A program made the position numbers and the translations under genes. DNA of 64,000 bases from Alphaproteobacteria bacterium SO-S41 (lineage in GTDB: Bacteria; Pseudomonadota; Alphaproteobacteria; Micropepsales; Micropepsaceae). The stretch is from the NCBI GenBank assembly GCA_019670725.1, contig AP024629.1, positions 682,001-746,000 on the forward strand, given 5' to 3'. Under the pieces are notes generated by a model. That model made no database searches and was not told the origin of the DNA. It worked only from the letters and a program-made list of their open reading frames with translations. Of this stretch, positions 30,601-52,534 are shown in pieces; position 1 is the stretch's first letter; each line of letters opens with the position of its first letter.

Positions 30601-31164
30601 ATGGAAATCAAGTCCAACAAACTCCCTCAAATGGTGCTGCCGCCTTCGATTCCCTACGACGGTCTGAGCCATGTCGCGTTCTACGCCGACGACATGCACG
30701 CCGCGACGAAACAGACTGAAGAAGAACTGGGCATGCCGCTGATGTGCCTGATGGACATTCCCGGCGGCGGCCAGCACTCGTTTCACGATGCGGGCAACGG
30801 CGCGTTCATGTCCTTCATGTGGTTTCCGAAGGAGAAGCGCGCGGACAAGCCGGATCGCAGCTTCAGCCACATCGCCTACCTCATTCCGGACGCCTATTTC
30901 GAGAAGGTGCGGGAAGATCTGGAGCAGAAGGGCCTTCTCAACTATGCGATCTATCACGGGCTTGAGGCGCCGATGCAGGTCGATGCGGATCACCCGGACG
31001 TGTGGATCCGTTCGCTGTATCTGAAGAAGACGATGGGCATGACGCTGGAGATCGCGAGCGTGAAGACGGCGCTCGACCCGCGCAAGCACATCTTCACCGA
31101 TCCGCGGAATGCAGACGGCGAGAAGGTTCCCTACAAGTCGATCTTCGTCAAAGACCTCGGCTAG
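30601..31164 (+). CDS. VOC-family (glyoxalase/extradiol dioxygenase-fold) protein
   Basis: A 187-residue vicinal-oxygen-chelate protein. Paired beta-alpha-beta-beta-beta modules are suggested by GLSHVAFYADDMHAATKQ near residue 22 and RSFSHIAYLIPDAYFEKV near residue 95, each beginning with a metal-ligand-type His, and by the closing MTLEIAS Glu. There is no signal peptide. Family reactions include isomerisation, epimerisation, extradiol cleavage and glutathione transfer, and the sequence alone does not choose between them. It stands alone between its promoter and a strong terminator, inside the catabolic cluster. Confidence 0.85.
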   Translation: MEIKSNKLPQMVLPPSIPYDGLSHVAFYADDMHAATKQTEEELGMPLMCLMDIPGGGQHSFHDAGNGAFMSFMWFPKEKRADKPDRSFSHIAYLIPDAYFEKVREDLEQKGLLNYAIYHGLEAPMQVDADHPDVWIRSLYLKKTMGMTLEIASVKTALDPRKHIFTDPRNADGEKVPYKSIFVKDLG

Positions 31165-31185: not shown

Positions 31186-31226
31186 AGCTCCTTGCACGCC
31201 TGCCGCGCGCAAGGAGCTATTTTTTT
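31186..31226 (+). terminator. Rho-independent terminator after VOC gene
   Basis: A 10-bp stem (AGCTCCTTGC / GCAAGGAGCT), a 13-nt GC-rich loop, then ATTTTTTT. Confidence 0.88.
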
Positions 31227-31330
31227 GCTCTTTATAGAAACATTTTTCGCCGGCCCAGACCTCTCTCGCCGCTGCGGCGAGCGACGTCCTCCTTTAGCGT
31301 TCCGCGTATAAAATCGGGGAAGGCAACGCC

Positions 31331-32479
31331 GTGACCGCAAGCATCGAGCCGCTCTTCCAGTCCTTCCAGTTGCGCGGTCTCACGCTGCGCAATCACTTCA
31401 CGATGTCGCCGATGCAGAAATTCCGGCCGGCAGATCACGTGCCGCATGATGAAATGGTCGAGTATCACCGCATCCGCGCAAGGAACGGCATCGCGATGAT
31501 CGTGTCGCAGGGCACGGCAATCGGCGTGCCCGGCGCGACCTCGGCCTACGCTTGGCTTCAGCCGTCCTCTTATGACGCCTGGGCGAGGATCGCCGACGCG
31601 GTGCGCAGCGAAGGCTGCCATATGTCGCTACAGGTCTATTACGACGCGCCGTCGCGGGACAAAGGCGCGTTCGGCCCTTCTGGCTACACGACGAACGGCG
31701 AGAAGAAGCGGGATCGCGGCATGGCGAAGGACGAGATCGATTTCATTCTCGAGACCTATGCCGAAGCTGCGGCCGCCGTGAAAAGACTGGGCTTCACCGG
31801 CATCGAACTGCACGGCGGCCAGGGCGGCCTGTTCGGCCAGTTCATGTCGCCTCTGGCGAATTTCCGGGACGACGAGTATGGCGGCGCCACGCCGCAGGAG
31901 CGTCTGACCCTGCCCATGAAGTTGGTCCGCACTGTCAGGGAGGCGGCAGGCCCTGATCTCATCGTCGGCCTGCGCCAGGCGCAGGTGTGGGAAGCCAAGC
32001 TCTTCGATACGCCCGAAGAGTACAAGATCTTCCTGGACGGCATGATCGCGGCCGGCGTGGATGTTTTCAATTGCGGCGTCGATCTCTACTGGCGCCCGGA
32101 ATATGCGGGCTCGCACATGAATCTCGGCGGCTGGATCAAGAAGCTGACCGGCCACCCCGTTATTACCTCCGGCGCCTTCGGTCTCGATAACCGCCTCGCC
32201 GATGTGGTCGAAGGAACGCCCGCCAACAACACGGTGAGGCAAGGCTTCGGCGACCTCATGAACCGCTTCCACAACGGCGAGTTCGACATGTTTGCGTTGG
32301 GCCGGACGATCCTTTGCGATCCGGATTATCTGCTCAAGCTGCGCGACGGGCGGTTCGATGAGATGATGCCGACCATCGATCTGAGCGACGTCGCCGGCAA
32401 CCAGATCACCTTCACCAAAGGCAAGTTCGCGCCGCAGACCAAGGCTAGCGCGCCCTCAACCGCACGGGCGAGCGCATAA
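31331..32479 (+). CDS. Old Yellow Enzyme-like NADH:flavin oxidoreductase, atypical active site
   Basis: A 382-residue TIM-barrel FMN protein of the OYE family, starting at GTG 31331. Family text includes LFQSFQLRGLTLRNHFTMSP, DFILETYAEAAAAVKRLGFTGIELHGG, RLTLPMKLVRTVREAAGPDL and the FMN-phosphate region MFALGRTILCDPDYL. Normal OYEs have QLxHxGR and HGAHGYL. Here these read QVYYDAP and HGGQGGL (His161 kept; Gln164 and Gly166 replace His and Tyr). The substrate-binding His pair and proton-donor Tyr are therefore missing, so the usual enoate reduction is doubtful. It is one of three OYE genes in this cluster; the other two keep canonical residues. Confidence 0.88.
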   Translation: MTASIEPLFQSFQLRGLTLRNHFTMSPMQKFRPADHVPHDEMVEYHRIRARNGIAMIVSQGTAIGVPGATSAYAWLQPSSYDAWARIADAVRSEGCHMSLQVYYDAPSRDKGAFGPSGYTTNGEKKRDRGMAKDEIDFILETYAEAAAAVKRLGFTGIELHGGQGGLFGQFMSPLANFRDDEYGGATPQERLTLPMKLVRTVREAAGPDLIVGLRQAQVWEAKLFDTPEEYKIFLDGMIAAGVDVFNCGVDLYWRPEYAGSHMNLGGWIKKLTGHPVITSGAFGLDNRLADVVEGTPANNTVRQGFGDLMNRFHNGEFDMFALGRTILCDPDYLLKLRDGRFDEMMPTIDLSDVAGNQITFTKGKFAPQTKASAPSTARASA

Positions 32480-32504: not shown

Positions 32505-33863
32505 CTAGCTCTTCATGTCTCCTTGGATGGTCCGGCGCGCCAGCCAGAAGCAGATCACCGCCGGGATGATGAAGAACTGCGAGATGATGAGCGCCCAGCG
32601 CACGCCTTCGCCTTCACCCATGCCGAGCGGGCCGGCGAAAACGTCGCTCATGATACCCACGGCGAGCGGGCCGACACCCAGGCCGATCAAATTGGCGATG
32701 AACAGGAAAATGGCCGCCGCGGTCGCGCGCATATGCGGGGGCACGATGCTTTGGACTGTCGCATAACTCGGCCCCGCCCAGGTGCCGCCGATAATGCCGT
32801 TCAGCACGAGCAGGGGCAGAACAGGCAGGAAACTCGGCATCAGGATCGCGGCGACATAGATCGGCAGCGTCACGGCCATCGCGATCGCCGGGATCGTCAT
32901 GTAGGCCTTCAGGTCCTTCGCGCCGTAGTGGTCCGCGATGATGCCGCCCAGACCGACGCCAACGGCCGCCGATGCGCCGCTGATCAGGCCAAGCACGATC
33001 GACAGGAATCCGATCTTCCCAAGCCCCCATTCGGCGCCGAGCAGGCCGATCTCCTCGCCGTGCACCCGAAAGAAGAACGACGCGGTGAACGGGGCGTGGC
33101 CGTAGGATACGAAGGCGACGATCGAGGTGGCGATCGAGAGCAGCCAGAAGGTCCTGTTCCCGCGCAGGAGCCGCAGCACATCCATGAAGCTCGTCTTCGG
33201 CGGCTGCGCGGCGGCGACAGCGGCGGCTGCCGCCGCCTTCATGCGCGGCTCGAACAGCGTGAGCACGACGAGAATGGCCAGCACGATGCCGGGCAGACCC
33301 ACAACCAGCAGCGCCCAGCGCCAGCCGAACGCGTCGGCGATGAGCCCGCCCGCCATCACGCCGATCAGCGCTCCCACCGGATTGCCCATCGAATAGAACG
33401 CCAGCGCCGTGGCGCGCTTGTTGGGCGGCACATAGTCGGAGATCAGCGAGTGCGCCGGCGGCGTGCAGCCCGCTTCGCCCACGCCCACGCCGACGCGCGC
33501 CAGAACGAGTTGCCAGAAATTCTGCGCAAAGCCGCACAGCGCGGTGAAGCCGCTCCATGCCGCCAGGGACAGGCCGATGATCCATGGCCGGTTGCGGCGT
33601 TCGGACAGGCGCGCAATTGGGATGCCGAGCGTGCAGTAGAAGAGCGCGAAAGCGGTGCCCGTCATCAGGCCGATCTGCCAATCGGCAATGCCCAATTCCT
33701 TCTTGATGGGCTCGGCCAGGATCGCGACGATCTGGCGGTCGATGAAGTTGAAGACGTAGACGATGAAAAGCAGGGTGATCGCGTAGTTCCGGTAGCCGAC
33801 GCTGACCGGGCTTACAAAGGCAGGCTTGGCGGCTGGTGCTGTCGGTGCGGCAGCGTCTGTCAT
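32505..33863 (-). CDS. MFS transporter (spinster-like)
   Basis: A 452-residue major facilitator with about twelve hydrophobic helices. It starts at ATG 33863. The segment NFIDRQIVAILAEPIKKELGIADWQIGLMTGTAFALFY, broken across two helices, is the N-terminal signature of spinster-like MFS proteins. RLSERRNRPWIIGLSL is the loop 2-3 motif and GVGEAGCTPPAHSLISDYVPPNKR a family hallmark. It is convergent with the atypical OYE gene. As part of the cluster it may take up the substrate across the inner membrane or export a product. A hairpin (TTGGGG / CCCCAA, 33911-33930) lies in its leader. Confidence 0.92.
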   Translation of the reverse strand: MTDAAAPTAPAAKPAFVSPVSVGYRNYAITLLFIVYVFNFIDRQIVAILAEPIKKELGIADWQIGLMTGTAFALFYCTLGIPIARLSERRNRPWIIGLSLAAWSGFTALCGFAQNFWQLVLARVGVGVGEAGCTPPAHSLISDYVPPNKRATALAFYSMGNPVGALIGVMAGGLIADAFGWRWALLVVGLPGIVLAILVVLTLFEPRMKAAAAAAVAAAQPPKTSFMDVLRLLRGNRTFWLLSIATSIVAFVSYGHAPFTASFFFRVHGEEIGLLGAEWGLGKIGFLSIVLGLISGASAAVGVGLGGIIADHYGAKDLKAYMTIPAIAMAVTLPIYVAAILMPSFLPVLPLLVLNGIIGGTWAGPSYATVQSIVPPHMRATAAAIFLFIANLIGLGVGPLAVGIMSDVFAGPLGMGEGEGVRWALIISQFFIIPAVICFWLARRTIQGDMKS

Positions 33864-34066
33864 GTGTGCTTCTTTGTTTTCTGGCTGATCAGGGGCATCG
33901 GCTAAACGTGTTGGGGCTATCGGTCCCCAAGAGCGCTCGCCCGAACATCGGCCCACTCTGAGCAGATCGTGGGCAAGCGGCAGTATCGTTGCGAGCGAAA
34001 TTTATTGTCTCGCGGATCATATTAATTCCTGCGCGTGGCGCGCTCGGATCTGGCTTTGATGGAAGC

Positions 34067-35287
34067 TCACGAAGCTTTGCCCGCATTTGATGCGCTGCGG
34101 TCTTCGCGCCTACGCTTAGCTTCTTCCATGGCGGCAGGAAGCGGCTTGCCGGCATCGGCATAGGCGCGCTCCATGGCGGCCGGCGTATTCGAAAATACCT
34201 CGCGCAAGCTGCCCTCGATCCAGTCGCGATTGCTTTCGATCGGCCCCAGCTGACCCTGGAAGCGCGGCATCACGTACCGCGCGAAAAGTTCGTAGCTGCG
34301 GCGCGTTGCTTCCGTCGAGGCCCATTCGTGCGCCAGTGACAGAAGCGTGCCGAAACCGCCGGTACGCTCGAGGATACGCTCGATCGCCGCTGCGACGTCG
34401 TCCGGCGAACCGATCAAGGCCGCGCCGCGTTCGGCCTGCTCGGCGAGCGTGCCGGCATTGGAGAACAGCGCGCCTTTGGCCGCTCGCGGATCTTTCGCAT
34501 CGCCGGAATAGGCGCGGTCGTCATAGCCCTGCTGGATTTCGGCGAGCGCTTCCTTGCGCGATTGCGCCACGTGCATTGTCATCGCGACCTTCCAGTCGGC
34601 GCGATGGATCGTCTTGTCGTGCTTGGCGGCGGACTCTTCCGCCCAACCCCAGGTCTGGTCGAACTGTGCATTGTCGATGCCGGCAATCGACATCAGCCCG
34701 ACGCCGTATTTGCCGGCCATCACCGGACCCGACGGCGTGTAGGTCGCGGCGACCGATACAGGCAGGTGGGGGCGGCTATAGCTCGCGAGCTGAAGGCGTG
34801 CGTCGCGCAGCTCGAACCAGTCGGTCTTCATGGTGACGGTTTCGCCCCTGAGCAGGGGCATGATCGCATCGAGAGCCTGGCCCATGCGGCGGCGCAGGTC
34901 TTCTGCGGGAATACCCATCATATAGGCGTCCGAAGACAGTGCGCCGGGGCCGCAGCCGAACATGGCACGGCCCTGCGTCATGTGGTCGATCTGAACCATC
35001 CGGTCGGCCACCATCAGCGGATGGTGATAGGCCAGCGACAGCACGCCGGTGCCGAGCTTGATGCGCCGCGTCGTCCGTGACGCGGCCGCCATCATGAGGA
35101 CGGGATCGCCGATCAGCTCCCGCCCATAGCTATGATGTTCGCCCCACCACGCCTCGTCATAGTCGAGCTCATCGAGATACTCGACCAGACCAAGGTCACG
35201 CTTCAGCGCGAGCGTCGGGTTTTCGCCGATGCGGTGAAACGGCGCGATGAAGATACCGAACTTCATCCGCTCCGGCCGATAGACCAT
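34067..35287 (-). CDS. Luciferase-like (LLM class) flavin-dependent monooxygenase
   Basis: A 406-residue bacterial-luciferase-family protein. MKFGIFIAPFHRIGENPTLAL opens the TIM barrel, and YDEAWWGEHHSYGRELIGDP and RIKLGTGVLSLAYHHPLMVADRMVQIDHMTQGR are classic LLM signatures, with FGCGPGALSSDAYMMG following. The ATG at 35287 has GGGAGGG 9 nt upstream. These enzymes use reduced flavin and oxygen to hydroxylate or perform Baeyer-Villiger reactions, and need a separate flavin reductase; none is seen adjacent. It follows the acyl-CoA-dehydrogenase-like monooxygenase gene by 85 bp on the same strand. Confidence 0.92.
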   Translation of the reverse strand: MVYRPERMKFGIFIAPFHRIGENPTLALKRDLGLVEYLDELDYDEAWWGEHHSYGRELIGDPVLMMAAASRTTRRIKLGTGVLSLAYHHPLMVADRMVQIDHMTQGRAMFGCGPGALSSDAYMMGIPAEDLRRRMGQALDAIMPLLRGETVTMKTDWFELRDARLQLASYSRPHLPVSVAATYTPSGPVMAGKYGVGLMSIAGIDNAQFDQTWGWAEESAAKHDKTIHRADWKVAMTMHVAQSRKEALAEIQQGYDDRAYSGDAKDPRAAKGALFSNAGTLAEQAERGAALIGSPDDVAAAIERILERTGGFGTLLSLAHEWASTEATRRSYELFARYVMPRFQGQLGPIESNRDWIEGSLREVFSNTPAAMERAYADAGKPLPAAMEEAKRRREDRSASNAGKAS

Positions 35288-35372: not shown

Positions 35373-36668
35373 TCATGACATGCGCGCGTTCGCCTTCGGC
35401 GACGGTTGCGGCACGCCAAGCAAGGCGCGGCCCGACACGGCCATGTTGCGATCCCAGTTCACCGCGCCATGGGTCGAGCCGACAACGATGTCGCGAATGA
35501 ACTGGCTCATCGGCTCTTCGACATAGTGCGCAGAGGTGCCCAGGCCCTTCGAGATTTCGAGCACCGCATCGCGACAGGTGTGGCCGACATAGGCGATCTC
35601 GCACATGATCTTTTCGGCGACTTTGACCTGCACTTCGGCGGGTTCGTTAGCGACCTCATAGGTGCGACGCGCGATGTCGCGCAGCTGGATTTCGCAGCCC
35701 TGCACCGCGGCGTGCACCTGGGCCAGGCGGATCTGCGAGGCCTGGTTTTCCTTTTCGATATCCGCGTCGCCGCGCTTGGTCCATTGCTGGAGCAGTTCGG
35801 TGTAGCGCTGCACGGCGCCGCGCGCGATGCCGACGAGAGCGACAGAGATCGTCGTCGAGAGGGCGTTGCGAAGATCGGCCTTGAAAACGGGGTAGTCAAA
35901 ACGCTCACGGATGATGTTGATCCATTGAGGCGACGTCATCACGCAGTTCACCGTCCGATACTCCGGAACGAAGACGTCCTCGATGAGAACCTTGTGCGTG
36001 CCGGTCGCAACCAGCCCGTCTGCGGTCCAGGTATCCAGAACCGTCACGTCGGTCACCGGCATCAGGAAGGTACCCATCGGCCGGACGCCATCCGGGCCGG
36101 GTTCGCCTGTGAAGCACATGACCGACACCCAGTCGGCCATCTGCACTGTCGTGCCCCAGGACCAAGTGCCGGAGACGCGCCAGCCGCCGTCTACCTTCCG
36201 CGCTTCGCCAAAGGGAGCAAATAGCGTGTTGAGGATGGTGTAACGACCGCTGACGAAGTCTTCGCCGTTGCCGTACATGTCCTTGTGCGCGCGATCGCTG
36301 AATGCGGCTGCCGAACGCGGATTCATGACCGAGAACGAGGCGAGCCAGCCCATCGCCGGGTCGGCTTCGCAGACCGCGAAGGTCGCATCGAGCATCTGGT
36401 CGAAGCTGGCTTCAAGCCCGCCCCAGATCTTCGGCACGGTCAAATAGTAGTACCCGGTCTTGCGCAGCGCGTTCCAGACTTCCGGAATCGGAATCGCGCG
36501 CAATTCGGCCTCACGGCGATGCTTGGCCATCAACGGCTTGAGCGCACGGACGCGCTCAATGACGATCTCTGGCGTAAGCTTCTCGACTTCTTCCGAGGTC
36601 AGGTAATCGTCGGGACCGGGGATATTCATCTCCGCGGTCTTCAACCCCGCCTTGTTCTTTCCTCCCAC
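35373..36668 (-). CDS. Acyl-CoA dehydrogenase-fold flavin monooxygenase (HpaB/HsaA-like), copy 1
   Basis: A 431-residue protein of the acyl-CoA dehydrogenase superfamily, closest in pattern to two-component hydroxylases (p-hydroxyphenylacetate hydroxylase C2, HsaA, DszC). GTG 36668 lies behind AGAGGGAG and is preferred; ATG 36629 is an alternative. It has LRKTGYYYLTVPKIWGGLEA, the middle beta-domain motif VSGTWSWGTTVQMADWVSV and a four-helix C-terminus with QIRLAQVHAAVQGCE. The catalytic Glu of true acyl-CoA dehydrogenases is not evident. It would hydroxylate an aromatic or polycyclic substrate using reduced flavin supplied by a partner. It is divergent from a CMD-like gene and paralogous to 43768-44991. 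Confidence 0.88.
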   Translation of the reverse strand: MGGKNKAGLKTAEMNIPGPDDYLTSEEVEKLTPEIVIERVRALKPLMAKHRREAELRAIPIPEVWNALRKTGYYYLTVPKIWGGLEASFDQMLDATFAVCEADPAMGWLASFSVMNPRSAAAFSDRAHKDMYGNGEDFVSGRYTILNTLFAPFGEARKVDGGWRVSGTWSWGTTVQMADWVSVMCFTGEPGPDGVRPMGTFLMPVTDVTVLDTWTADGLVATGTHKVLIEDVFVPEYRTVNCVMTSPQWINIIRERFDYPVFKADLRNALSTTISVALVGIARGAVQRYTELLQQWTKRGDADIEKENQASQIRLAQVHAAVQGCEIQLRDIARRTYEVANEPAEVQVKVAEKIMCEIAYVGHTCRDAVLEISKGLGTSAHYVEEPMSQFIRDIVVGSTHGAVNWDRNMAVSGRALLGVPQPSPKANARMS

Positions 36669-37124
36669 TGACTTCTTCTCCCTCTCTAGTGTGATAAGTG
36701 TTTCTGCGGCGGTGGCCACGCCCAGGATTGCGCTGCCGGAAACCACCATGTTCTTGTTTCAGGTCACTGCGACGTGCGTCGCTCAACCCATGCTGCAAAC
36801 GTCCATTGTCCCGTGCCTGACGGCCCGCGGGCAAGACGCGACAACAGGAAAGTCGCCGCGCCGCCCATGTGGCAATGGTAATTATTTTTACAATCTAATA
36901 AAGCCGTGTGATCGCATCAAAAGTGAGGCCGTATGGCATCAATCTCGCCTTAGCGCGGGCTGGGGCGGGCGTCTCCAGCAATTCGCTTTGCGGCCTCTCA
37001 AGATTTTTCTCGGTTGATCCGCTCGCCATGACGGCAAAGCATGGTCGCCGGTTCGGCTTTTGCGCCCGAAATGACAGTTCAGTCATCGGCGATGTGTGCG
37101 CTTGGCAACCGAGGGGAGGCTTGG
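36669..37124. other. Divergent intergenic region (456 bp) with possible LysR-type site
   Basis: This separates the monooxygenase and CMD-like genes. Short frames here show no family features or ribosome sites. The only structure I see is an AT-rich patch with TTATT-N10-AATAA (36882-36901), which is compatible with a LysR-type T-N11-A site. Confidence 0.4.
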
Positions 37125-37727
37125 GTGTCACGAATTACGCCAGTATCGCGCGATGAGGCGTCGGAAGAGGTTCTTGCCTACTACGACAAGGTCTTCGCCG
37201 GCCGCGATCCCGCCGCGGAACCCGGTACCGGCACCGGCACGCCCGGCGACTGGTGGACGACATGGGCGCGCTCACCCGACATCCTGAACTTCTTCCATTC
37301 CTACACCTACACCATCGTGCCGCAGCCCTTGCGGAGCCTCGCGCTGATGCGCACGGGCTATGTCTGCCAGAGCCACTTCGTCTTCTCGCAGCACAGCAAA
37401 GCCGCGCGCATGGGCGGGCTTTCTGAAGAAAAGTCAGAGGCGGTGCCCTATTGGCAGATCAGCGACGTTTTCACGCCGGCAGAGCGTGCGCTTCTCGCTT
37501 ACTGCGACGCCTACGCTCTTCAGCACGGGCGGGTGCATGACCGGCTGTTCGCCGCAATGAAGGAGCATTTCAGCCAGGATCAGATCCTGCAGCTCACCTA
37601 TTTCATCAACCTGTACGTGCTGCATTCGCAGACCGGCCGCGCGTTTCGCATGGAATACGACAACGTTCCCGAGCGCGTGGTCGAAATCCCAGCGCCGGCG
37701 ACGCCGAGTGCCCAGAAGTGGCGCTAG
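37125..37727 (+). CDS. Carboxymuconolactone decarboxylase-like protein, copy 1
   Basis: A 200-residue AhpD/CMD-fold protein. GTG 37125 follows GAGGGGAGG by 5 nt; the frame from 37041 has no such support. It has the distinctive GTGTGTPGDWWTTW segment near residue 35, the CMD helix pair SLALMRTGYVCQSHFVFSQHSKAAR and a MEYDNVPERVVEIP tail. In AhpD-type proteins the helix carries CxxC plus a His; here the CxxC positions are occupied by other residues while SQH remains, so peroxidase-type redox chemistry is unlikely. It could be a lactone decarboxylase or isomerase on a ring-cleavage product. Two paralogues are in the window; the next gene is one of them. Confidence 0.85.
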   Translation: MSRITPVSRDEASEEVLAYYDKVFAGRDPAAEPGTGTGTPGDWWTTWARSPDILNFFHSYTYTIVPQPLRSLALMRTGYVCQSHFVFSQHSKAARMGGLSEEKSEAVPYWQISDVFTPAERALLAYCDAYALQHGRVHDRLFAAMKEHFSQDQILQLTYFINLYVLHSQTGRAFRMEYDNVPERVVEIPAPATPSAQKWR

Positions 37728-37763: not shown

Positions 37764-38423
37764 ATGCCCCGTATAAGGCCGTTGCCGCGCAGCGAAGCTG
37801 CGCCGTCCGTCGCCGCCGTCTACGACACGATCTTCGGCAAGGATCGAGATCCGGCCGTTTCACCCGGTACGGCAACGGGAACGCCGGGCGGATTCTTCAC
37901 CACGTGGGGCCATCTGCCGGATCTGCTGACCCAACTCCTGAAATACCGCCCCGATCCGCCGGTCTTCTCACCGGCATTGCGCGGCCTCGCCTGCGCGCGG
38001 GCCGGCTATGCGACCCAGAGCCAGTTCACATTCTCGCAGAACTGCAAGGTCGCGCGCTGGGCCGGCGTTGACGAAAAAAAGATCGAGGCGCTGCCCTATT
38101 GGAGCGGGACGACCGACATCTACACGGCCGAAGAACGCGCCGTTCTTGCTTTCACCGACGCTCATATCCTTGAGGGCGGGCGTGTCCACGACTGGCTGTT
38201 CGCGGAGTTGCGCAAGTTCCTCAATGAGGAGCAGCTCCTCTCGCTCTCTTTCACGATCTGCCTTTACGGCATGCATGGGCGCATGGCGAAGGGGCTGCGC
38301 TATGACTATGACGACATTCCCGATCCGATCGTCGAGATTCCCGAGCCGGAGATCAAGCCGGGCGTGCAGGATTGGCGCGACCCCAAATGGGCGGACGCGT
38401 ATTCAGAGCGCCACAGCAAATAG
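37764..38423 (+). CDS. Carboxymuconolactone decarboxylase-like protein, copy 2
   Basis: A 219-residue paralogue of the preceding gene, 36 bp downstream and probably co-transcribed. Equivalent motifs are PGTATGTPGGFFTTW, GYATQSQFTFSQNCKVAR and YDYDDIPDPIVEIP. The histidine of the SQH motif is Asn here, and no CxxC is present, so this copy may be catalytically different or a partner subunit. The C-terminal tail (GVQDWRDPKWADAYSE) resembles that of copy 3 at 47233. Its stop abuts the convergent OYE gene directly. Confidence 0.85.
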   Translation: MPRIRPLPRSEAAPSVAAVYDTIFGKDRDPAVSPGTATGTPGGFFTTWGHLPDLLTQLLKYRPDPPVFSPALRGLACARAGYATQSQFTFSQNCKVARWAGVDEKKIEALPYWSGTTDIYTAEERAVLAFTDAHILEGGRVHDWLFAELRKFLNEEQLLSLSFTICLYGMHGRMAKGLRYDYDDIPDPIVEIPEPEIKPGVQDWRDPKWADAYSERHSK

Positions 38424-39542
38424 CTAGCCGCTTGCCGGCGCGGCCTGTCGCGCCTTCGCGAGGCGCGCCGTCCGCGCCTCGGACGAGATGTCGTCTTTCT
38501 CGTAGGTCTGCTTCAGGGCATCGAAGCGGCCGGCCCGGATTTTCACCAGGAACTCCGGATCGACCAGGATCGGGCGGCCCAGGGCAATGAGGTCGAAATC
38601 GCCGCGATCGAAGCGGCGCTCCAGCTCGGCAAAACCCTCGTGGGCCGTGCTGAACGCCTTGCCGCCGGTCAGTACGCTCATCAGATCGTGGCTGAGCCCG
38701 ATGCTGCCGCCGCTGATCACCGGCGCCCCGGTGCACCGCTTCAGCCACGCGTTCAGACCGAGATCCTCACCCTCGAATTCCGGCTCCCAGAAACGCGGTG
38801 CCAGCACATCGAGCATGTCGACACCGGCCGCAACCAGCGCACCTGCATTGGTGGCCAGTTCTCCGGGGTTACGGAAGATCTTGGGTGCTGTCACGGGCGA
38901 CGGTTGCGAGATCCGATAGAGAATGGGGAAATCCGGGCCGACCGCCTTGCGGACGGCGCGCGTCACGGCCAGCGGGAAACGCATACGCGCCTCGACCGTG
39001 TCGCCGCCCCACTCGTCCGTCCGCTTGTTCGAGGTGCCGCTCGCGAACAGCCCAAGCAGATAGCCGTGACCGCCATGCAGCTCTACGCCCGAAAAACCAA
39101 GCGCCTTGGCCCTGGCTGCGGATGCTGCGTAAACTTCGATCAACTCCTCGATCTGGGTCGTAGACAGAGCCTCGCCCGTCGTTGCGCCCGAGAAGGCCAG
39201 GCCGGATGGGCTGAAGCCGCCCGGCCGCATGGCGCTCTCATGCCAGAGCTGCATCGCGATCTGCCCGCCGCGCTCGCGGACCGTCTCGGCGCATCGCCGC
39301 CATGCGTCGTAAGCGGGCGGATAGAGCCGTGCGTAGGGACTGACAGAGGTCGGATGGTCCATCGTCGTGCCCTGGGTGACGATGAGGCCGATGCCGCCTG
39401 CGATCCGGTCCGCGTAGTGCTGCGCCAGCTCCGTGCTGGGCAGGAGATCTTCGGGCCTCCGGTCCTGCATCGCGGACATCACGAAGCGGGTTGGGAGCTG
39501 CAGGTTTGCGACGGTGCAGGGTTGGAAGAAACTATCGCGCAC
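38424..39542 (-). CDS. Old Yellow Enzyme-like NADH:flavin oxidoreductase, copy 2
   Basis: A 372-residue OYE-family flavoprotein starting at GTG 39542, with AGGA upstream. Canonical substrate residues are present: His101 in MQLWHESAM, His156 and His159 in ELHGGHGYLLG and Tyr161. The FMN-phosphate motif DLIALGRPILVDPEFL lies near the C-terminus. OYEs reduce activated C=C bonds (enones, nitro compounds) with NAD(P)H. It is 21 bp downstream of the third OYE gene, with which it shares C-terminal text (RGDFDLxAxGR). Both belong to the operon that starts with the TonB receptor at 43407. Confidence 0.92.
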   Translation of the reverse strand: MRDSFFQPCTVANLQLPTRFVMSAMQDRRPEDLLPSTELAQHYADRIAGGIGLIVTQGTTMDHPTSVSPYARLYPPAYDAWRRCAETVRERGGQIAMQLWHESAMRPGGFSPSGLAFSGATTGEALSTTQIEELIEVYAASAARAKALGFSGVELHGGHGYLLGLFASGTSNKRTDEWGGDTVEARMRFPLAVTRAVRKAVGPDFPILYRISQPSPVTAPKIFRNPGELATNAGALVAAGVDMLDVLAPRFWEPEFEGEDLGLNAWLKRCTGAPVISGGSIGLSHDLMSVLTGGKAFSTAHEGFAELERRFDRGDFDLIALGRPILVDPEFLVKIRAGRFDALKQTYEKDDISSEARTARLAKARQAAPASG

Positions 39543-39563: not shown

Positions 39564-40676
39564 TTAGGTGAGAACCGCGTGCGATTCGCGGGTGTATGAT
39601 TGCAGCTCGGAGGTGCGGCCGTCGCGGACTTTGAGCCACCAATGGGGATCGACCAGCAAAGCGCGCCCGATGGCGACCAGATCGAAGTCGCCACGCTCGA
39701 AACGGCGCATCAGGTCGTCCAGGGATTGCGGCGCGGACGCGGTGCCCTGGAAGACGTCGGTGATGAAGTCGCTGGAGAGGCCGACGGACCCCACGGTGAT
39801 CGAGGGGCGGCCCGTCAGCTTCTTGGCCCAGCCCGCGAAGTTGAGATCGCTGCCCTCAAACTCGGGCTCCCAGAAGCGGCGCTGCGAGCAATGGAAGATG
39901 TCCGCCCCGGCATCCGCCAGCGGCCTGAGCCAACGCTCCATCTCCCCGGGTGTCGCCGCGACGCGCGTCAGCAGCGATTGCTGCTTCCATTGCGAGAGCC
40001 GCAGCGAGACGACGAAGGCCTCGCTTACATTGCGGCGCACCTCTTTCAGGACCTCCACGGCGAACCGGGTGCGGTCCTCGATCGCCGGGCCACCCCAACC
40101 ATCGGTGCGCCGGTTGATGCCCTGCCAGAAGAACTGGTCGATGAGATAGCCGTGGGCGCCGTGGATCTCGAGCGCGTCAAAGCCCAGCGCCTCAGCGTAC
40201 CGCGCCGCCTCGCCGTAGGACGCGATGATGTCGGCAATATCGGCATCGCCAAGCGGCTCAGCGACCCGGACCTCTTCCTTGTGATAGCCGGACGGGCTGT
40301 CGAGCGGCGCGCCGATCTCCCACGATCCCACGCGATGCACCGGAACGGGCATGGCGCCGACATGCCAGAGCTGCGGCGCCATCCTGCCGCCGCCGGCATG
40401 GACCTCGTCGATCGTGTGCTTCCAGGCCTTGAGGCCGGCCTCGCCGGCGAAGCGCGGACAGGCCGGCTCATTCAGCGAGGCCAGGCGGCCGATCCCCGTC
40501 GCCTCGGAAATGATGAAGCCGACATCCGCTTCCGCGCGCCTGCGGTAATAGGCGGACATCTCGCGGCTTTGGATCTGCCCAGGGCTCATCGCGCGCTCCA
40601 TCGGCGCCATCACGATGCGGTTTTTCAGCTTCAGGGACTTCAGCTGGAACGGCTGGCGCAGCGCCGAGAGACTCAT
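39564..40676 (-). CDS. Old Yellow Enzyme-like NADH:flavin oxidoreductase, copy 3
   Basis: A 370-residue OYE-family flavoprotein. ATG 40676 begins MSLSALRQPFQLKSLKLKNRIVMAPMERA, a normal OYE N-terminus; the open frame to 41081 is a shadow of the SnoaL-like gene. It contains QLWHVGA, the His pair and Tyr in LEIHGAHGYLIDQFFW, RTDGWGG and DLVAIGRALLVDPHW. No C-terminal 4Fe-4S/FAD extension is present, so it is a classical short OYE rather than a dienoyl-CoA reductase. It lies 11 bp after the SnoaL-like gene and 21 bp before OYE copy 2. Confidence 0.93.
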   Translation of the reverse strand: MSLSALRQPFQLKSLKLKNRIVMAPMERAMSPGQIQSREMSAYYRRRAEADVGFIISEATGIGRLASLNEPACPRFAGEAGLKAWKHTIDEVHAGGGRMAPQLWHVGAMPVPVHRVGSWEIGAPLDSPSGYHKEEVRVAEPLGDADIADIIASYGEAARYAEALGFDALEIHGAHGYLIDQFFWQGINRRTDGWGGPAIEDRTRFAVEVLKEVRRNVSEAFVVSLRLSQWKQQSLLTRVAATPGEMERWLRPLADAGADIFHCSQRRFWEPEFEGSDLNFAGWAKKLTGRPSITVGSVGLSSDFITDVFQGTASAPQSLDDLMRRFERGDFDLVAIGRALLVDPHWWLKVRDGRTSELQSYTRESHAVLT

Positions 40677-40687
40677 GGCCCGCTTCC

Positions 40688-41184: not shown

Positions 41185-43407
41185 CTAGTAGCGCAGGCTC
41201 AGCTGAAGGCCGATGTTACGCCCTTCGTCGATGTGCGGCACGATACCGACGCCCGGGTATTGGTAGACGCTGTTGACGGTCAGCTCGTTGAAGATGTTCC
41301 GGCCCACCAAAGCGAGTTCCCAGGTATCGTTCGGGGACCCGATGCCGAGACGGACATTCGTCTTCAAGGTCGCGTCCTGGAAACCCCAGAACGGATTGAA
41401 CCCGCCCGCGTCGATGCTTGCGCTCGACCGGTAGGTCACTTCCGGAATGAAGGTCAGTTCCAGATTGTCGGAGAGGGGCACGCGAACGTTGGCCGAAAGC
41501 GAGAACGTCCACTTCGGCAACGTCAACGGACGTCCCGCAGCATTTGCACCGCCGGCTGCGGAGGTACATCCTGCCAACGCTTCATAATAGGTGCAAGGCG
41601 CACCCATATACTCCAGATACTTGCCGGTCGTGTACGATCCGTTGAAGTTGATCGTGACATAGTCGCTCGGGCGGGCATTGAGCGTCCACTCGATGCCCTT
41701 GGTGCGCGCGCGACCGGCGTTCACGTTGAGGAGTACCGGCGGCGCGCCGACAAACTGGCCCGTCTGCAGATTGTCCACGGTGAGCTGGAAGATGGAGATG
41801 TTGGCCGTCAGCCAATCGCCCCACTGCGAGCGCAGACCGACCTCGTAGTTCTCCGACGCTTCCGGCTCCAGTTTGAACTGCGCCTGCACCGCCGTGCGGT
41901 TGACGTTCTGGAACGCGCCGCTCTTCGAGCCCCGGGAATAGGCCGCATAGACCATGATGTCCGGCGTGATCTTGTATTCCAGCGAGATGGACGGATCCAC
42001 GCGGTAGGTCGAGATGTCGCCGGTCATGACACGATTGATCACGCCCGGTGCCGGGGTGATGCCGGGGTCGATGCCGACCTCGTAGTTTACCGTCTGGCCG
42101 TAATCGGCATGCTTCTCAGTATGCGTCCAGCGCAGGCCGACCGTCGCCGAAAACGCCTCGGTGATGTCGAACGTACCGGTCGCATAGGCGGACAGCGTGT
42201 CGCCGTCCTGCCGGAACAGCGCCAGCACGGTGTAGGGGTCCGACAGAGCCGTGTCGGCGATGCTGCGTACGGTATAGTCCGTGTCGTAATTGCTGGTGTC
42301 GTAATAGAGGCCGGCGACCCAGTTGAACCGGCCGTCCGTCGGCGACAGCACGCGCAGCTCCTGGGAGAACTGGTCGAAGTCTTCGATCAGCCGCGACCCC
42401 AGCGGCTCCGGATTCATGGCGCCCGCGCCGGAATAGGATTCGGCCTTGTAGGCGGAGTAGCCCGTGACGGAGACGAGCGAGTAGCCGCCGCCGAATTCCC
42501 AGGTCGCTTCGTTCACAGCCTGCCAGGGCTTCAGCCACACACCTTCCTGCTGGCCCTGCGGATTGGCGACATCGCGCACCCAGTCGACCTGGTCCTCGAG
42601 CGGGATGACCGTGGAGGGCAACCTCGCCTTGTTCCAGCCCAGCTGCTCGAAATCGGTGCGCTCATAGCGGAAGATGCTGCGGAAATTCTCCGACGGCTCC
42701 CACGCCAGCGTGAAACGGCCGGCGATGCTGTCGAAGCGCGGATCGCCCCGGCCGCCGAACGACTTGTTCTTAAGCCAGCCTTCGTTGGTGTGATTGTATT
42801 TCAGCGCGAGGCGCGCGGTCAGCGTCGGCGCGATCTCGCCGGATACGAAGCCGAACACGTCAACGCCTTCACGATCGAAGAGGTACATCGTGTCGAGACC
42901 GGCGGAGAGCTCCTGCGTCGGCTCGGCCGTGACGAAGCTGATGGCGCCCGCCGCCGTGTTCTTGCCGAGCAGCGCGCCCTGCGGGCCGCGCAGCACCTCG
43001 ACACGCGCAATGTCGAAGAACGGCGTCTGCAATTGCCGCGCGCGGCCTGCATAGATGCCATCCCAGTAAAGCGTGACAGCCGGATCATAGGCCGGATTCG
43101 ACGGCGAGCCGGCGAAGCCGCGCATCGAAATGACGGGGATCGTGGCCGACTGGGCGAAGCCGACGCCTGGAACGGACGCCGTGAGCTCCTTGACGTCGGT
43201 GACGCCCGCATCGCGCAGGGCTGCCCCACGAAAGACGTTCATCGAGATCGGCACGTCCTGAACGGATTCCTTGCGCTTGGTCGCCGTGACGACCACCTGC
43301 TCATCCACCTTTTCCGGCGCCGGTTTTGACTGTGCTCCAGCCACTGTGACGAGCGACAGCGCGAAACCCACGCCGATGCTGCCCACACGCATTGAATTGC
43401 GAGACAA
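41185..43407 (-). CDS. TonB-dependent receptor of catabolic cluster
   Basis: A 740-residue outer-membrane receptor. TTG 43407 is placed 5 nt behind GGGGAGG, whereas the next ATG (43392) is too far from it, so the TTG start is preferred. A signal peptide (VGSIGVGFALSLVTVAGAQ) is followed by the TonB-box/plug region DEQVVVTATKRKESVQDVPISM, then SMRGFAG, VEVLRGPQGALLGKNTAAGA and a barrel ending in NIGLQLSLRY. This is the iron-complex/small-hydrophobic-molecule type common in sphingomonad degradation clusters. It probably imports the cluster's substrate, and heads a minus-strand operon with a SnoaL-like and two OYE genes. Confidence 0.94.
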   Translation of the reverse strand: MSRNSMRVGSIGVGFALSLVTVAGAQSKPAPEKVDEQVVVTATKRKESVQDVPISMNVFRGAALRDAGVTDVKELTASVPGVGFAQSATIPVISMRGFAGSPSNPAYDPAVTLYWDGIYAGRARQLQTPFFDIARVEVLRGPQGALLGKNTAAGAISFVTAEPTQELSAGLDTMYLFDREGVDVFGFVSGEIAPTLTARLALKYNHTNEGWLKNKSFGGRGDPRFDSIAGRFTLAWEPSENFRSIFRYERTDFEQLGWNKARLPSTVIPLEDQVDWVRDVANPQGQQEGVWLKPWQAVNEATWEFGGGYSLVSVTGYSAYKAESYSGAGAMNPEPLGSRLIEDFDQFSQELRVLSPTDGRFNWVAGLYYDTSNYDTDYTVRSIADTALSDPYTVLALFRQDGDTLSAYATGTFDITEAFSATVGLRWTHTEKHADYGQTVNYEVGIDPGITPAPGVINRVMTGDISTYRVDPSISLEYKITPDIMVYAAYSRGSKSGAFQNVNRTAVQAQFKLEPEASENYEVGLRSQWGDWLTANISIFQLTVDNLQTGQFVGAPPVLLNVNAGRARTKGIEWTLNARPSDYVTINFNGSYTTGKYLEYMGAPCTYYEALAGCTSAAGGANAAGRPLTLPKWTFSLSANVRVPLSDNLELTFIPEVTYRSSASIDAGGFNPFWGFQDATLKTNVRLGIGSPNDTWELALVGRNIFNELTVNSVYQYPGVGIVPHIDEGRNIGLQLSLRY

Positions 43408-43767: not shown

Positions 43768-44991
43768 TCACGAGATGATGGTGTTCGGCGGCATGCCGAG
43801 CATTGCGCGGCCATGCTGCTCCATCGTCACGTCGTCGTCGAAGATCACATGGCTCGTCATCACCATCATGTCGCGGAGAATCCGCTGCAGCGGATTGGTC
43901 TTGTAGTGGATCGAGGTGCCCGTCGATTCGCAGACGGTCTGGACGGCGCTCCGCGAAAGCTGTGCCGCGAAGGTCATCTGAGCCCGCAGGCGGCTGCGGA
44001 AGGCGACCTGCTCGTCGCCGGACAGGCGATCGCCGGTGAGATTTTCATTCATCGCCGAACGCACGGTCTGCTCGGCGACGGACACCATGGTTTCGGCGCG
44101 CGCGAGCCTGATCTGCGAGGACTGACGATCACGTTCCTGAATGGCCGTGCCGCGCTTGGTGTGGTTGAGCAGCCGGTCCTTGTAGAGATTGACCGCCCCG
44201 CGCGCCGTGCCGACGACGGGAACCGCGGTCGTGAAGGCGAGGAGCGGCGACAGCGGAACCCGGTAGATGGGATTGTCGTACAGCTCCGCGCCGCGGCCCT
44301 TGCCATCCCGGTTCTGCACGAAGCCGGCGCGATGCTCGGGCACGAAGACGTCTTTCGCCACGGCGTCATGCGTGCCGGTCGCGCACATCCCGTCGGTGTT
44401 CCAGGTGTCGATGATCTCGCAGTCGGACGCCGGCAGCAGGAACGAGCCGCCGATCGGGCCATCCGGTCCATCGACGACCGCCACGGCCTGGATCCAGTCG
44501 GCCTGCACGCACAGCGTCGACCATTGCCAGCGCCCGCTGACGAGATAGCCGCCATCCGTGCGCACCGCCTTGCCGGGCGGCATGGTGGCGGCGGCGACGA
44601 TGCCGTAGCGCCCGCCGCCGAAGATTTCCTCCTGGAACTGTTCGGAGGCGAGCGCCTGGTGGCGGTTGTGAACGAGGCCGAAGCTCGCAAGCCAGGCGGT
44701 GGACGCGCAGCCCTCGGCAATAGGGAGCGTCGCGTCGATGACCTCATCCACGCTCGCCTCAAGCCCGCCGAACTTCTTGGGCACCCACATGTAGAAATAG
44801 CCGGAGGCCCGGATCTCGTTCCAAAGCGCGTCGAGCGGACGCCGCTGCGCCTCGGCCTCAGCGGCGCCTTCGAGCAGGGCCGGCTGCAAGGCCCGCATCC
44901 TGTCGATCACATGCTGCGGCGTCAGCGCCTTCAGCTGCGCGGGGGTGAGAAAGTCGTTGCCGGGTGTCTGGCGCTGCACAGGCGATGTCAT
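43768..44991 (-). CDS. Acyl-CoA dehydrogenase-fold flavin monooxygenase, copy 2
   Basis: A 407-residue paralogue of 35373-36668. ATG 44991 (MTSPVQRQTPG) has CGGAG 7 nt upstream and is preferred over the longer frame to 45018. Shared features are LTPQHVIDRMRALQPALLEG, ASGYFYMWVPKKFGGLEASVDEVIDATL, AWLASFG, the beta-domain LVSGRWQWSTLCVQADW and RAMLGMPP at the end. It is expected to use reduced flavin and oxygen for hydroxylation, with a separate reductase. It is transcribed divergently from two SnoaL-like genes, just as copy 1 is divergent from two CMD-like genes. Confidence 0.88.
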   Translation of the reverse strand: MTSPVQRQTPGNDFLTPAQLKALTPQHVIDRMRALQPALLEGAAEAEAQRRPLDALWNEIRASGYFYMWVPKKFGGLEASVDEVIDATLPIAEGCASTAWLASFGLVHNRHQALASEQFQEEIFGGGRYGIVAAATMPPGKAVRTDGGYLVSGRWQWSTLCVQADWIQAVAVVDGPDGPIGGSFLLPASDCEIIDTWNTDGMCATGTHDAVAKDVFVPEHRAGFVQNRDGKGRGAELYDNPIYRVPLSPLLAFTTAVPVVGTARGAVNLYKDRLLNHTKRGTAIQERDRQSSQIRLARAETMVSVAEQTVRSAMNENLTGDRLSGDEQVAFRSRLRAQMTFAAQLSRSAVQTVCESTGTSIHYKTNPLQRILRDMMVMTSHVIFDDDVTMEQHGRAMLGMPPNTIIS

Positions 44992-45146
44992 CAATAAGCT
45001 CCGCTCGTCGGACCGCACTTCACCGTCTCGGGCGCGACATGTCTAAGACCCAGATCGTCTCAATCAATGCCAGAAGCGTCTAAGTGAAGGCGAAAGGCGG
45101 CACTGGCCGAGAGCTCACCTTGTGCTGTGCACCCTGGCCTCAGGCT

Positions 45147-45181
45147 GCAAAATTGATTTGCGCGCAAAGCAAACATTTTGC
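45147..45181. promoter_or_regulatory. Clustered GCAAA/TTTGC elements in divergent promoter
   Basis: Five GCAAA or TTTGC half-sites occur within 35 bp (45147, 45157, 45164, 45169, 45177), including the 12-bp palindrome TTTGCGCGCAAA (45157-45168) and GCAAA-N5-TTTGC. It lies between the monooxygenase and SnoaL-like genes, and the pattern is compatible with multiple LysR-type dimers. Confidence 0.45.
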
Positions 45182-45240
45182 GCGTTGCCTCGGGCGCGAC
45201 GGCCGCGCCTAAGATGCGGCAAGAAAGACCGGGAGGGCGG

Positions 45241-47880: not shown

Positions 47881-48317
47881 GCGGCACACTGGCGATCACG
47901 CGCAAGACGATCACCGCGGACGCAGCCGACCGGCTGATCGCCGCGGCGGCGAAATCCGCAACCGAGATCGGCGTCCCCATGGTCATCGCCATCACCGATG
48001 AGTCGGGCACGCTGAAGGCGTTCAGCCGCATGGACGGCGCGCCGCTGCTCAGCGTCGAGCTGGCGCGCGACAAGGCCTACACATCAGCGGCGTTCGGCAT
48101 TCCGACCCATGCCTGGTTCGACTTCGTGAAGGGCGATCCGCCGCTGCTGCACGGCATCGTGAAAACCCCGCGCCTGATCGTCTTCGGCGGCGGCTACCCG
48201 ATCAAGGATGGCGACGCGGTCGTCGGCGCCATCGGCGTCAGCGGCGGTCACTACGATCAGGACATGATCGTCGCCAAGGCGGCGCTTGCGGCGCTGGGCC
48301 TCAGCGATGGCGGCTGA
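47877..48317 (+). CDS. GlcG/HbpS-family protein
   Basis: A 146-residue protein of the GlcG/HbpS family (formerly DUF336). It has AADRLIAAAAKSATEIGVPMVIAITDESGTLKAFSRMDGA, ARDKAYTSAAFGIPT and the glycine-rich PIKDGDAVVGAIGVSGG segment. Some relatives bind haem or cobalamin or sense redox stress; many lie in catabolic operons with unknown roles. The start overlaps the CMD stop by 4 bp (ATGA) and its end overlaps the WrbA-like gene by 11 bp, which implies coupled synthesis. Confidence 0.9.
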   Translation: MSGTLAITRKTITADAADRLIAAAAKSATEIGVPMVIAITDESGTLKAFSRMDGAPLLSVELARDKAYTSAAFGIPTHAWFDFVKGDPPLLHGIVKTPRLIVFGGGYPIKDGDAVVGAIGVSGGHYDQDMIVAKAALAALGLSDGG

Positions 48318-48936
48318 AGGCGCCGCAAGCCCGCGCCTCCTGATCGTCTTTTATTCGCGCGGTGGGTCGGTCGAAACTCTGGCGACCGCCATCGCCGAAG
48401 GCGCGCAGGGGCAGGGTGCGGAGGTGCGAATCCGCCGCGCCCGCGAACTGGTCGGGCCCGAGATCATGGATCGCGTGCCGGGCTGGCGCGACACGGCGGC
48501 GCGCATGAATGCGCTCTACGAGGCGCCGACCCTGGCCGACGCGGAATGGGCCGATGGACTGCTGATCGGCGCACCGACGCGGTTCGGTACGCCCTCGACG
48601 GAACTGCTCGCCTGGCTGGAGACGCTCGGGCCGCTCTGGCTCAGCCAGAAGCTGCTCGACAAGGTCGGTTCGGTCTTCACCTCGACCTCCTCACCGCATG
48701 GCGGGATGGAGGCGACCCTGCTCGGCCTCTATCCGACGCTCGCGCATCTCAATCTCGTCATCGTGCCGACCGGTTACGGCGATCCCGCCCTCTTCCGCGC
48801 CGGTACGCCCTACGGCGCCGCCTCGGCATCGTTCGGCATGGAGCGGCGGCCGCCGAGTGACGACGATCTGGCCGTCGCCCGCTATCAGGGCGCGCGCGTC
48901 GCGCGGGTCGCCCAGGCGCTGCGGACGCCCAGATGA
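48307..48936 (+). CDS. WrbA-like NAD(P)H:quinone oxidoreductase
   Basis: A 209-residue flavodoxin-fold protein. IVFYSRGGSVETLATAIAEGA is the FMN-phosphate loop, GAPTRFGTPSTELLAWLETLGPLW the second flavin loop, and SSPHGGMEATLLGLYPTLAHL matches the WrbA SxxxHGGxE region. These enzymes reduce quinones by two electrons, avoiding semiquinones. In this operon it may reduce a quinone intermediate of the pathway, or provide reduced flavin for the monooxygenases, which lack an obvious reductase nearby. ATG 48307 lies inside the preceding gene; the LysR gene overlaps its stop. Confidence 0.9.
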   Translation: MAAEGAASPRLLIVFYSRGGSVETLATAIAEGAQGQGAEVRIRRARELVGPEIMDRVPGWRDTAARMNALYEAPTLADAEWADGLLIGAPTRFGTPSTELLAWLETLGPLWLSQKLLDKVGSVFTSTSSPHGGMEATLLGLYPTLAHLNLVIVPTGYGDPALFRAGTPYGAASASFGMERRPPSDDDLAVARYQGARVARVAQALRTPR

Positions 48937-49823
48937 CGCTCGATCCGCGCCTGCTCACCGCTTTTGTCGCCGTCGCGGAAGCGCGGTCCTTCAGCAAGGC
49001 CGCGACGGCGCAGAACATTGCGCAGCCCTGGCTGTCGCGCCAGGTGCGCAAGCTTGAGGGCCTAGTCGGTTTCGATCTCTTCGACCGCACGGCCCGGCAG
49101 GTCGAACTGACCGAGAAGGGGCGGCGCCTGTTCGACCGCGCGCGGGTGGCGGTCAGCCATGTGCGCGCCACGGCGGCGCTGGCCAAGACACTGGCGCGAG
49201 AGCGCGAGTCCTCAAGGCTTGCCATCGGCGTCGCGCCGTACGGCATCTTCGTGGCGCCGCGGACGGCCCTGATCGACCGCTTCATGGCGGTGGAGCCCAA
49301 TGCGCGGGTCGAACTTGAGATCGGCGGCGCCGACAAGCTGATCGATGGACTGCAGGACGGCCGGCTGGATGCCGTTTTCGCCATCGATGCGCCGGGCCTC
49401 GAGCTCGGCGAGGATCTGGAGAGCATCGCGCTCTGCGAAGGCGGTATCGATGTCGTCATGCCGAAGGACGACCCGCTGGCGCGCAAGAACCGGATCCATG
49501 CCGGCGACCTCGCCGGACGCAGCATGGCGACCTTCTCGCGGGCGTCGCATGGCGTGCTGTTCGACATGGTCTTCGGGGCCTTCGAACCCGCCGGCGTGAA
49601 GCTCCGTGAAGTCTCCGACTACAGCTTCTTCCTGCACCTTGCCGAGCGCGGCCAGATCACCGCTTTGCCGGCCTGGCAGCCGCTGCCGGTCGGCGGTCTC
49701 GTCCGCCGGCCCTACCCGGACTGCGGCGTCAATCTCAGCTTCAAGGTCACGCGCAGCCGTTCCAACGCCTCGCGCCCGCTGAGCACGTTCTGGCAGATCG
49801 CCAGCGAAATCGCGGCGGCCTGA
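48933..49823 (+). CDS. LysR-family regulator, last gene of operon
   Basis: A 296-residue LysR-type regulator: HTH LLTAFVAVAEARSFSKAATAQNIAQPWLSRQVRKLE in the first 40 residues and a type-2 periplasmic-binding effector domain (SSRLAIGVAPYGIFVAPRTALIDRF). Its ATG overlaps the WrbA-like stop by 4 bp, so the regulator is made from the operon it probably controls. This is unlike the usual divergent LysR arrangement. A second LysR gene (46056-47012) flanks the operon's other end. Confidence 0.9.
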   Translation: MTLDPRLLTAFVAVAEARSFSKAATAQNIAQPWLSRQVRKLEGLVGFDLFDRTARQVELTEKGRRLFDRARVAVSHVRATAALAKTLARERESSRLAIGVAPYGIFVAPRTALIDRFMAVEPNARVELEIGGADKLIDGLQDGRLDAVFAIDAPGLELGEDLESIALCEGGIDVVMPKDDPLARKNRIHAGDLAGRSMATFSRASHGVLFDMVFGAFEPAGVKLREVSDYSFFLHLAERGQITALPAWQPLPVGGLVRRPYPDCGVNLSFKVTRSRSNASRPLSTFWQIASEIAAA

Positions 49824-52497: not shown

Positions 52498-52534
52498 GTC
52501 CAAACTCCTTTGTGATGGCTGCTGAGGGCGCCGT

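Follow-up and report, generated by a model that had tools for sequence, protein, structure and literature searches.

What might an OYE-fold enzyme do when the tyrosine that serves as proton donor in its relatives has been replaced by glycine? This question is raised by P0001, a gene in the window (the whole 64,000-nucleotide stretch of DNA analysed here). An initial annotation had described its product as an OYE homologue lacking the substrate His pair and the proton-donor Tyr, and had suggested that it performs a different reaction or acts as a flavin carrier. Judged from its sequence, P0001 is a real, rare active-site variant of the well-known OYE family, for which we can name a candidate function.

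Fold and active site of P0001

P0001 is a single intact frame of 382 codons that starts with GTG, exactly fills the interval given in Table 1 and encodes 382 aa. The PF00724 (Oxidored_FMN) profile matched the product with an E-value of 5.7e-32 and 111.8 bits, above the curated cut-off of 27, and the NCBIfam matches are to OYE-type models, each far under its own curated cut-off. A structure prediction confidently gave the OYE fold: the AlphaFold model, computed from 35 aligned sequences that came from the window and the named-genome loci, is an OYE (beta/alpha)8 barrel with a mean pLDDT of 83.6 and a pTM of 0.86, in which residues 349-382 have a pLDDT below 50. Its closest match in the PDB is PcOYE5 (8e5h; Z 39.8, rmsd 2.5, 336 residues aligned), and among the matches listed, classical and thermophilic-like OYE structures span Z scores of 39.8-33.6, rmsd values of 2.3-3.8 and identities of 19-26%. 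PcOYE5, SYE4 (4b5n), YqjM (1z41), XenA and PETNR have the fold, the FMN-site residues and the first substrate His in common with P0001, which differs from them in having no Tyr donor, Gln for the second His or Asn, and Tyr for the His of QLWH. P0001 is a genuine OYE-fold protein. Recent import of the gene was considered and rejected; its GC content per codon position (0.61/0.45/0.82; GC3 0.815) is similar to that of the neighbouring genes and gives no sign of it.

For the residue counts, P0001 was aligned with 167 other OYE homologues of at least 280 aa from the fetched loci and the window, 168 distinct sequences in all; numbering and roles follow OYE1, YqjM and PETNR. In this alignment, Q101, R215, G324 and R325, which correspond to the FMN-site residues of OYE1 and YqjM (a Gln, the Arg on the strand that follows helix 5, and the GR phosphate motif), are all retained in P0001, in keeping with the earlier claim that the FMN-phosphate motif (G324, R325) is intact. 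The positions compared proved to be equivalent across the 168 homologues, and the objection of a poor alignment, which the initial annotation had itself foreseen, fails. Both motif changes that it had described are real: QLxHxGR has become QVYYDAP with H104Y, at a column that is His in 167 of the 167 others, and HGAHGYL has become HGGQGGL through H164Q and Y166G. The His of QLxHxGR is not known to belong to the OYE substrate His pair.

In published accounts, that pair is either His-Asn or His-His (PMC12046209; PMC3659409). Its first member, at column 161, is His in 165 of the 167 others and is retained in P0001; the second, at column 164, is His in 166 and Ser in one, with Gln in P0001; and the donor column 166 is Tyr in 160, Phe in four, His in two and Asn in one, with Gly in P0001. 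In short, where a canonical ene-reductase has His-His or His-Asn together with a Tyr donor, P0001 has H161/Q164 and G166. The statement that the His pair and the Tyr are lacking was right for the Tyr and for one His and wrong for H161. The substrate pair is only half lost, His/Gln probably being a modest step from the classical His/Asn, and the clear loss, as read from the alignment, is that of the proton-donor Tyr. Homologues sharing the Gln/Gly substitutions, for which a search had been proposed, did not appear: Gln in column 164 and Gly in column 166 are each absent from all of the 167 other distinct homologues examined (0/167) and occur in P0001 alone. The two paralogues that had been offered as controls, P0002 (QLWHESA, HGGHGYL) and P0003 (QLWHVGA, HGAHGYL), do retain both His and the Tyr, but the G-R end of QLxHxGR is absent from them. 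Further changes were noted at column 103, where 163 of the 167 others have Trp and P0001 has Tyr; at columns 251-252, where Arg stands in 160/167 and 159/167 and P0001 has DL in place of RR; at the T/C position near the flavin, which is Q29 in P0001; and after R215, where P0001 is shorter than its nearest paralogues by 3-4 residues. Binding by P0001 may be affected both by the DL at 251-252 and by the residues missing after R215.

Relatives of P0001 and its rate of change

How might this active site have arisen? An IQ-TREE tree was built from 42 of the 168 rows, leaving out L007-L010 and L076:1627-2748, which are five distant OYEs, as well as rows at least 66% identical to a chosen one. In this tree, whose bootstrap had not fully settled, P0001, P0002, L152 (= L003), L148 (= L004) and L151 (= L064, L011) form one clade with support of 100/100, and Q29 and Q60 are confined to these five members among the 168 sequences. 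At position 166, His stands in L004 and L064, Asn in L003, Tyr in P0002 and Gly in P0001. P0002 shares the clade and Q29/Q60 with P0001 and differs in keeping the Tyr and both His; L003, L004 and L064 (L151) are Tyr-less as P0001 is, but keep both His of the substrate pair, and Q164, G166, Y104 and Y103 are found in P0001 only. Within the clade, P0001 pairs with P0002 at 94/88, a placement that is unsure because the end branch of P0001 has a length of 2.67, against a median of 0.61. A tree that forces the four Tyr-less members into one clade is not rejected (p-AU 0.209), so that one or two losses of the Tyr took place in the five-member clade. Two certain independent losses, to which the joining of P0001 with the Tyr-bearing P0002 would point, were considered and rejected in view of that p-AU value.

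By sequence comparison, P0001 is an accelerated paralogue: it carries 82-83 private changes against 34-38 in P0002, with L003, L004 or L011 as the outgroup (chi-square 16.7-19.9), and from this excess we deduced that its change has been accelerated. An earlier set contained 139 sequences besides P0001. Of the 90 columns that at least 90% of these conserve, P0001 retains 50 and has lost 40; the corresponding losses are 28 of 91 for P0002, 13 of 90 for L003 and 14 of 90 for L004. The branch length and the lost columns would be compatible with relaxed constraint, but the column count does not by itself amount to decay, because five more distant OYEs lose 42-50 conserved columns, more than P0001. 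Relaxed constraint may still apply, since no orthologue was found with which selection could be measured.

Among the matches listed from the 96 genomes of the family there was no orthologue of P0001; the best of near full length have about 40% identity and none has more, and 41% is reached by one 89-residue piece only. Nothing nearer occurred among the matches listed from 385 genomes of the class, 398 of the phylum (overlapping the class set) and 163 of another family, where matches were taken under strict E limits of 1e-65 to 1e-75. On plasmids, 93 records matched, and the best 40 of these 93 reach a top identity to P0001 of 37%. A scan of the genome contigs with P0001 alone gave 10 stretches that fit a pattern, none of them a relative, and an alignment-based scan of the contigs gave 362 relatives, the best 80 of which held nothing nearer to P0001. 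A class search with query A1 matched 58 of the 385 genomes at E <= 1e-90 and yielded 29 new loci. No OYE with Gly at the donor position was recognised among the papers listed from the open PMC literature, as far as their titles and abstract openings tell.

Gene neighbourhood and cassettes around the relatives

The MFS gene converges on P0001, the two gene ends lying 25 bases apart, and on the other side a terminator-like hairpin separates P0001 from the VOC-like gene (Table 1), which suggests that P0001 is its own transcription unit. An operon with the upstream TauD and VOC-like genes was considered and rejected because this hairpin intervenes. The hairpin is not in the consensus terminator scan, whose loop limit is 3-8, and the consensus scan of the region gave no excess of promoters or terminators.

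Table 1. Features in and around P0001, in positions of the window
Feature	Position	Strand	Basis
Hairpin with T tract, resembling an intrinsic terminator; lies between P0001 and the VOC-like gene	31186..31226	+	Folding z -2.69; 1 of 200 shuffles folds as well
Ribosome-binding-like stretch GGGGAAGG	31316..31323	+	7 nt 5' of the P0001 GTG start
P0001, OYE-fold flavoprotein with the pair H161/Q164, Y166G, H104Y, W103Y and Q29	31331..32479	+	Frame, Pfam, alignment, model
MFS transporter, convergent with P0001; relatives in paralogous cassettes	32505..33956	-	Profile, tblastn
Luciferase-like (LLM) flavin monooxygenase family protein	34067..35287	-	Profile matches
HsaA-like flavin-dependent monooxygenase with the acyl-CoA dehydrogenase fold; relatives in cassettes	35373..36749	-	Profiles, tblastn
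P0002, OYE paralogue closest to P0001 in the tree; HGGHGYL and QLWH retained	38424..39542	-	Alignment, tree
P0003, OYE with HGAHGYL	39564..40670	-	Pfam, alignment
TonB-dependent receptor; relatives in cassettes	41185..43407	-	tblastn, Pfam
Second HsaA-like monooxygenase	43768..45018	-	Family match, tblastn
Protein of the FMN reductase family, a candidate source of reduced flavin for the monooxygenases	48286..48936	+	Family match
LysR regulator; relatives beside Tyr-less OYEs	48933..49823	+	Family match, tblastn

The start of P0003 was set by homology, the ORF list having a longer frame at 39564-41081. The region of the window also holds CMD-like and SnoaL-like proteins, LysR regulators and an RPE65-type oxygenase. 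To judge from its gene content it is catabolic-looking and rich in flavin monooxygenases; the TauD, CMD, SnoaL, RPE65, LLM and HsaA-like neighbours fit many pathways and point to no single substrate, and the one paper listed by a literature search on this question concerns bile acids.

Several smaller families were also seen. Three CMD-family-like proteins (37041-37727, 37764-38423 and 47233-47880) have a mutual identity of 45-53%, and three related small SnoaL-like proteins (40688-41113, 45178-45633 and 45670-46059) are 30-52% identical; one of the latter adjoins an OYE, and that at 40688-41113 is under the Pfam cut-off. A 187-aa protein at 30601-31164 has a weak, below-cut-off match of glyoxalase type (Pfam E 0.052; PDB E 0.11). 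The RPE65-family (carotenoid oxygenase) protein lies at 51130-52581, and a relative of it is found less than 20 kb from the L004 paralogue (L149:9447-9998).

For the neighbourhoods of the relatives, tblastn was run with 26 window genes, one of which was mis-framed and set aside, against the window itself and nine fetched loci. Genes related to those for the HsaA-like, MFS, TonB and LysR proteins adjoin Tyr-less OYEs at L146, in the organism's own genome, and at L064/L151, and at L148 the LysR gene alone of this set lies beside the OYE. A conserved five-gene set, found at L146:11494-18984 (G000:C1:797494-804984) and L064:4736-12115, comprises an HsaA-like monooxygenase, an MFS transporter, a TonB receptor, an OYE with Asn or His for the donor Tyr, and a LysR regulator, and is a candidate two-enzyme catabolic cassette. 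P0001 is separated from the HsaA-like gene by the MFS and LLM genes; because it has no adjacent HsaA-like gene, the relatives are more firmly linked to the cassette than P0001 itself.

Possible reactions of P0001

What reaction might such a protein catalyse? Tentatively, and with somewhat less than even confidence, we propose that P0001 binds FMN and is an oxidoreductase of the OYE fold that became specialised once its gene had been duplicated. Most likely it would be an ene-reductase, specific for a single intermediate of catabolism and perhaps slower; here we infer FMN occupancy, substrate class, proton route and activity alike. The qualifications of specificity and rate come from the Gly in place of the Tyr donor, and ene-reduction is suggested because the fold, the FMN site and H161 are kept and because the Tyr is dispensable in other OYEs. 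FMN would occupy the usual site (Q101, R215, G324, R325), as the alignment suggests, with NAD(P)H as its probable reductant. The carbonyl of a conjugated substrate would then be held by H161 and Q164, as it is by His/Asn in classical OYEs, and N5 of the flavin would pass a hydride to the beta carbon of that substrate. Because the donor Tyr is Gly, the alpha carbon would be protonated by water or by another residue, for which Y103 is a candidate, as a guess.

The OYE1 mutant Y196F is reportedly strongly impaired on enones. For AfOYE1, Y216F is reported to retain 30% activity, a loss that the authors call dramatic, taking Tyr as the donor (PMC10787880); for PETNR, the Tyr is stated to be non-essential and replaceable by water (PMC3659409); and for OPR3, Y190F is described as having no observable effect on oxime reduction (PMC9942197). 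Against ene-reduction by P0001 stands the fact that the cited Tyr mutants carry Phe, not Gly, and have an unchanged second member of the pair (His or Asn). By analogy P0001 could catalyse a different reaction, yet the loss of the Tyr does not imply one.

If the enolate were left unquenched and the hydride returned, P0001 would be a redox-neutral C=C isomerase, like EasA of the Phe type, or a reverse desaturase re-oxidised by O2, a quinone or a partner. EasA with Phe is reported to isomerise and, after a Phe-to-Tyr change, to reduce (PMC4303823), the OYE enolate is described as branching to protonation or hydride abstraction (PMC3533789), and two Tyr-less relatives of P0001 share their cassettes with genes for a TonB receptor and an HsaA-like oxygenase. 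Natural OYE-family dehydrogenases of bile-acid steroids are also on record, but the 5beta-Delta4-3-ketosteroid dehydrogenase is described as a large flavoenzyme with FAD, FMN and an Fe-S cluster (PMC8399759), unlike the 382-aa P0001 with its single PF00724 match. Since P0001 has Gly and not Phe, and reduction is reported to survive Tyr replacement in other OYEs, we consider hydride return rather unlikely. Also conjectural, and in our view doubtful, is a wider scheme in which P0001, L003, L004 and L064 would be a small lineage without the donor Tyr. At two loci or more, its members would act together with an HsaA-like flavin monooxygenase, as parts of a TonB-fed cassette for catabolism, and would isomerise or desaturate their substrates by hydride return instead of reducing alkenes; P0001, with its His/Gln site, would be the most extreme member.

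Could P0001 instead be a relaxed or decaying duplicate, its old function covered by P0002 and P0003 and its active site drifting, with little or no catalysis? Its acceleration relative to P0002, the lost conserved columns, the lack of an orthologue among the matches listed in the family, class, phylum and plasmid searches, and the hairpin that cuts it off from the upstream gene would all fit such decay. We think it unlikely, in that the intact frame, the neighbour-like GC3 and the retained FMN-site residues are features of a working gene, a ribosome-binding-like stretch lies in front of it, and the five more distant OYEs have lost even more columns. Very unlikely, in our judgement, is a role as flavin carrier or reductase partner, whereby P0001 would make reduced FMN for, or pass electrons to, the HsaA-like and luciferase-like monooxygenases and would have no organic substrate of its own. 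Three neighbouring genes (at 34067, 35373 and 43768) do belong to flavin-dependent monooxygenase families, and no flavin reductase was found among the scanned genes near two Tyr-less relatives, although that scan covered 14 of 15 called genes at L146 but 5 of 13 at L064. An FMN reductase is already present in the window, the substrate-side H161 is retained, and OYEs are known to bind FMN tightly. As for the original suggestion of a different reaction or a carrier role, a different outcome is possible for P0001 because natural loss of the Tyr in EasA changes its reaction, but the sequence gives no sign of a specific new reaction or of a carrier.

Tyr-less bacterial OYEs are already known, morphinone reductase being one of them. 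This working bacterial OYE has Cys191 at the donor position, and a C191A mutant has reportedly been studied; it resembles P0001 in having no donor Tyr and differs in having Cys, not Gly, and in being a reductase of morphine alkaloids, the likeness being one of description and not of position-wise alignment. If P0001 is a plain ene-reductase, it would be another natural case of a dispensable Tyr beside morphinone reductase. OYE protonation has been ascribed to 'a Tyr or Cys' (PMC3533789). The isomerase form of EasA, from the ergot alkaloid pathway, is reported to be an OYE without the donor Tyr (PMC4303823); likened to P0001 by description and not by sequence, it differs in having Phe where P0001 has Gly and in being fungal and biosynthetic. 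E. coli 2,4-dienoyl-CoA reductase (1ps9) has the OYE fold and likewise deviates at the His pair, where Met and Glu align, but it keeps the Tyr, is 671 aa long and lacks the first His that P0001 has. Engineered OYE variants at the donor Tyr are already in use, to judge from literature listings and PDB titles (Y169F). The natural enzymes whose donor position is G, H, N or Y, four of the five in one genome, would make the donor role testable on proteins shaped by selection, and the Tyr-less OYEs might yield an isomerase or a desaturase.

Other natural variants were noted among the homologues. A long-frame OYE homologue in the organism's own genome (L007:1468-2508) has HAGHGFL, with Phe at the donor Tyr position. 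OYEs of Sphingomonas (L111:10001-11086 and L113:10004-11089) and Pedobacter caeni (L131:7283-8362) carry Phe in the donor column and Ser at the T/C position on the flavin side, and, from their sequences, are possibly another natural Tyr-less set. In Pedobacter sp. KBW06 (L109:10013-11089) and Pedobacter caeni (L131:10013-11089), an OYE has Gln for the first His (VEVQGAHGYL), the mirror image of P0001.
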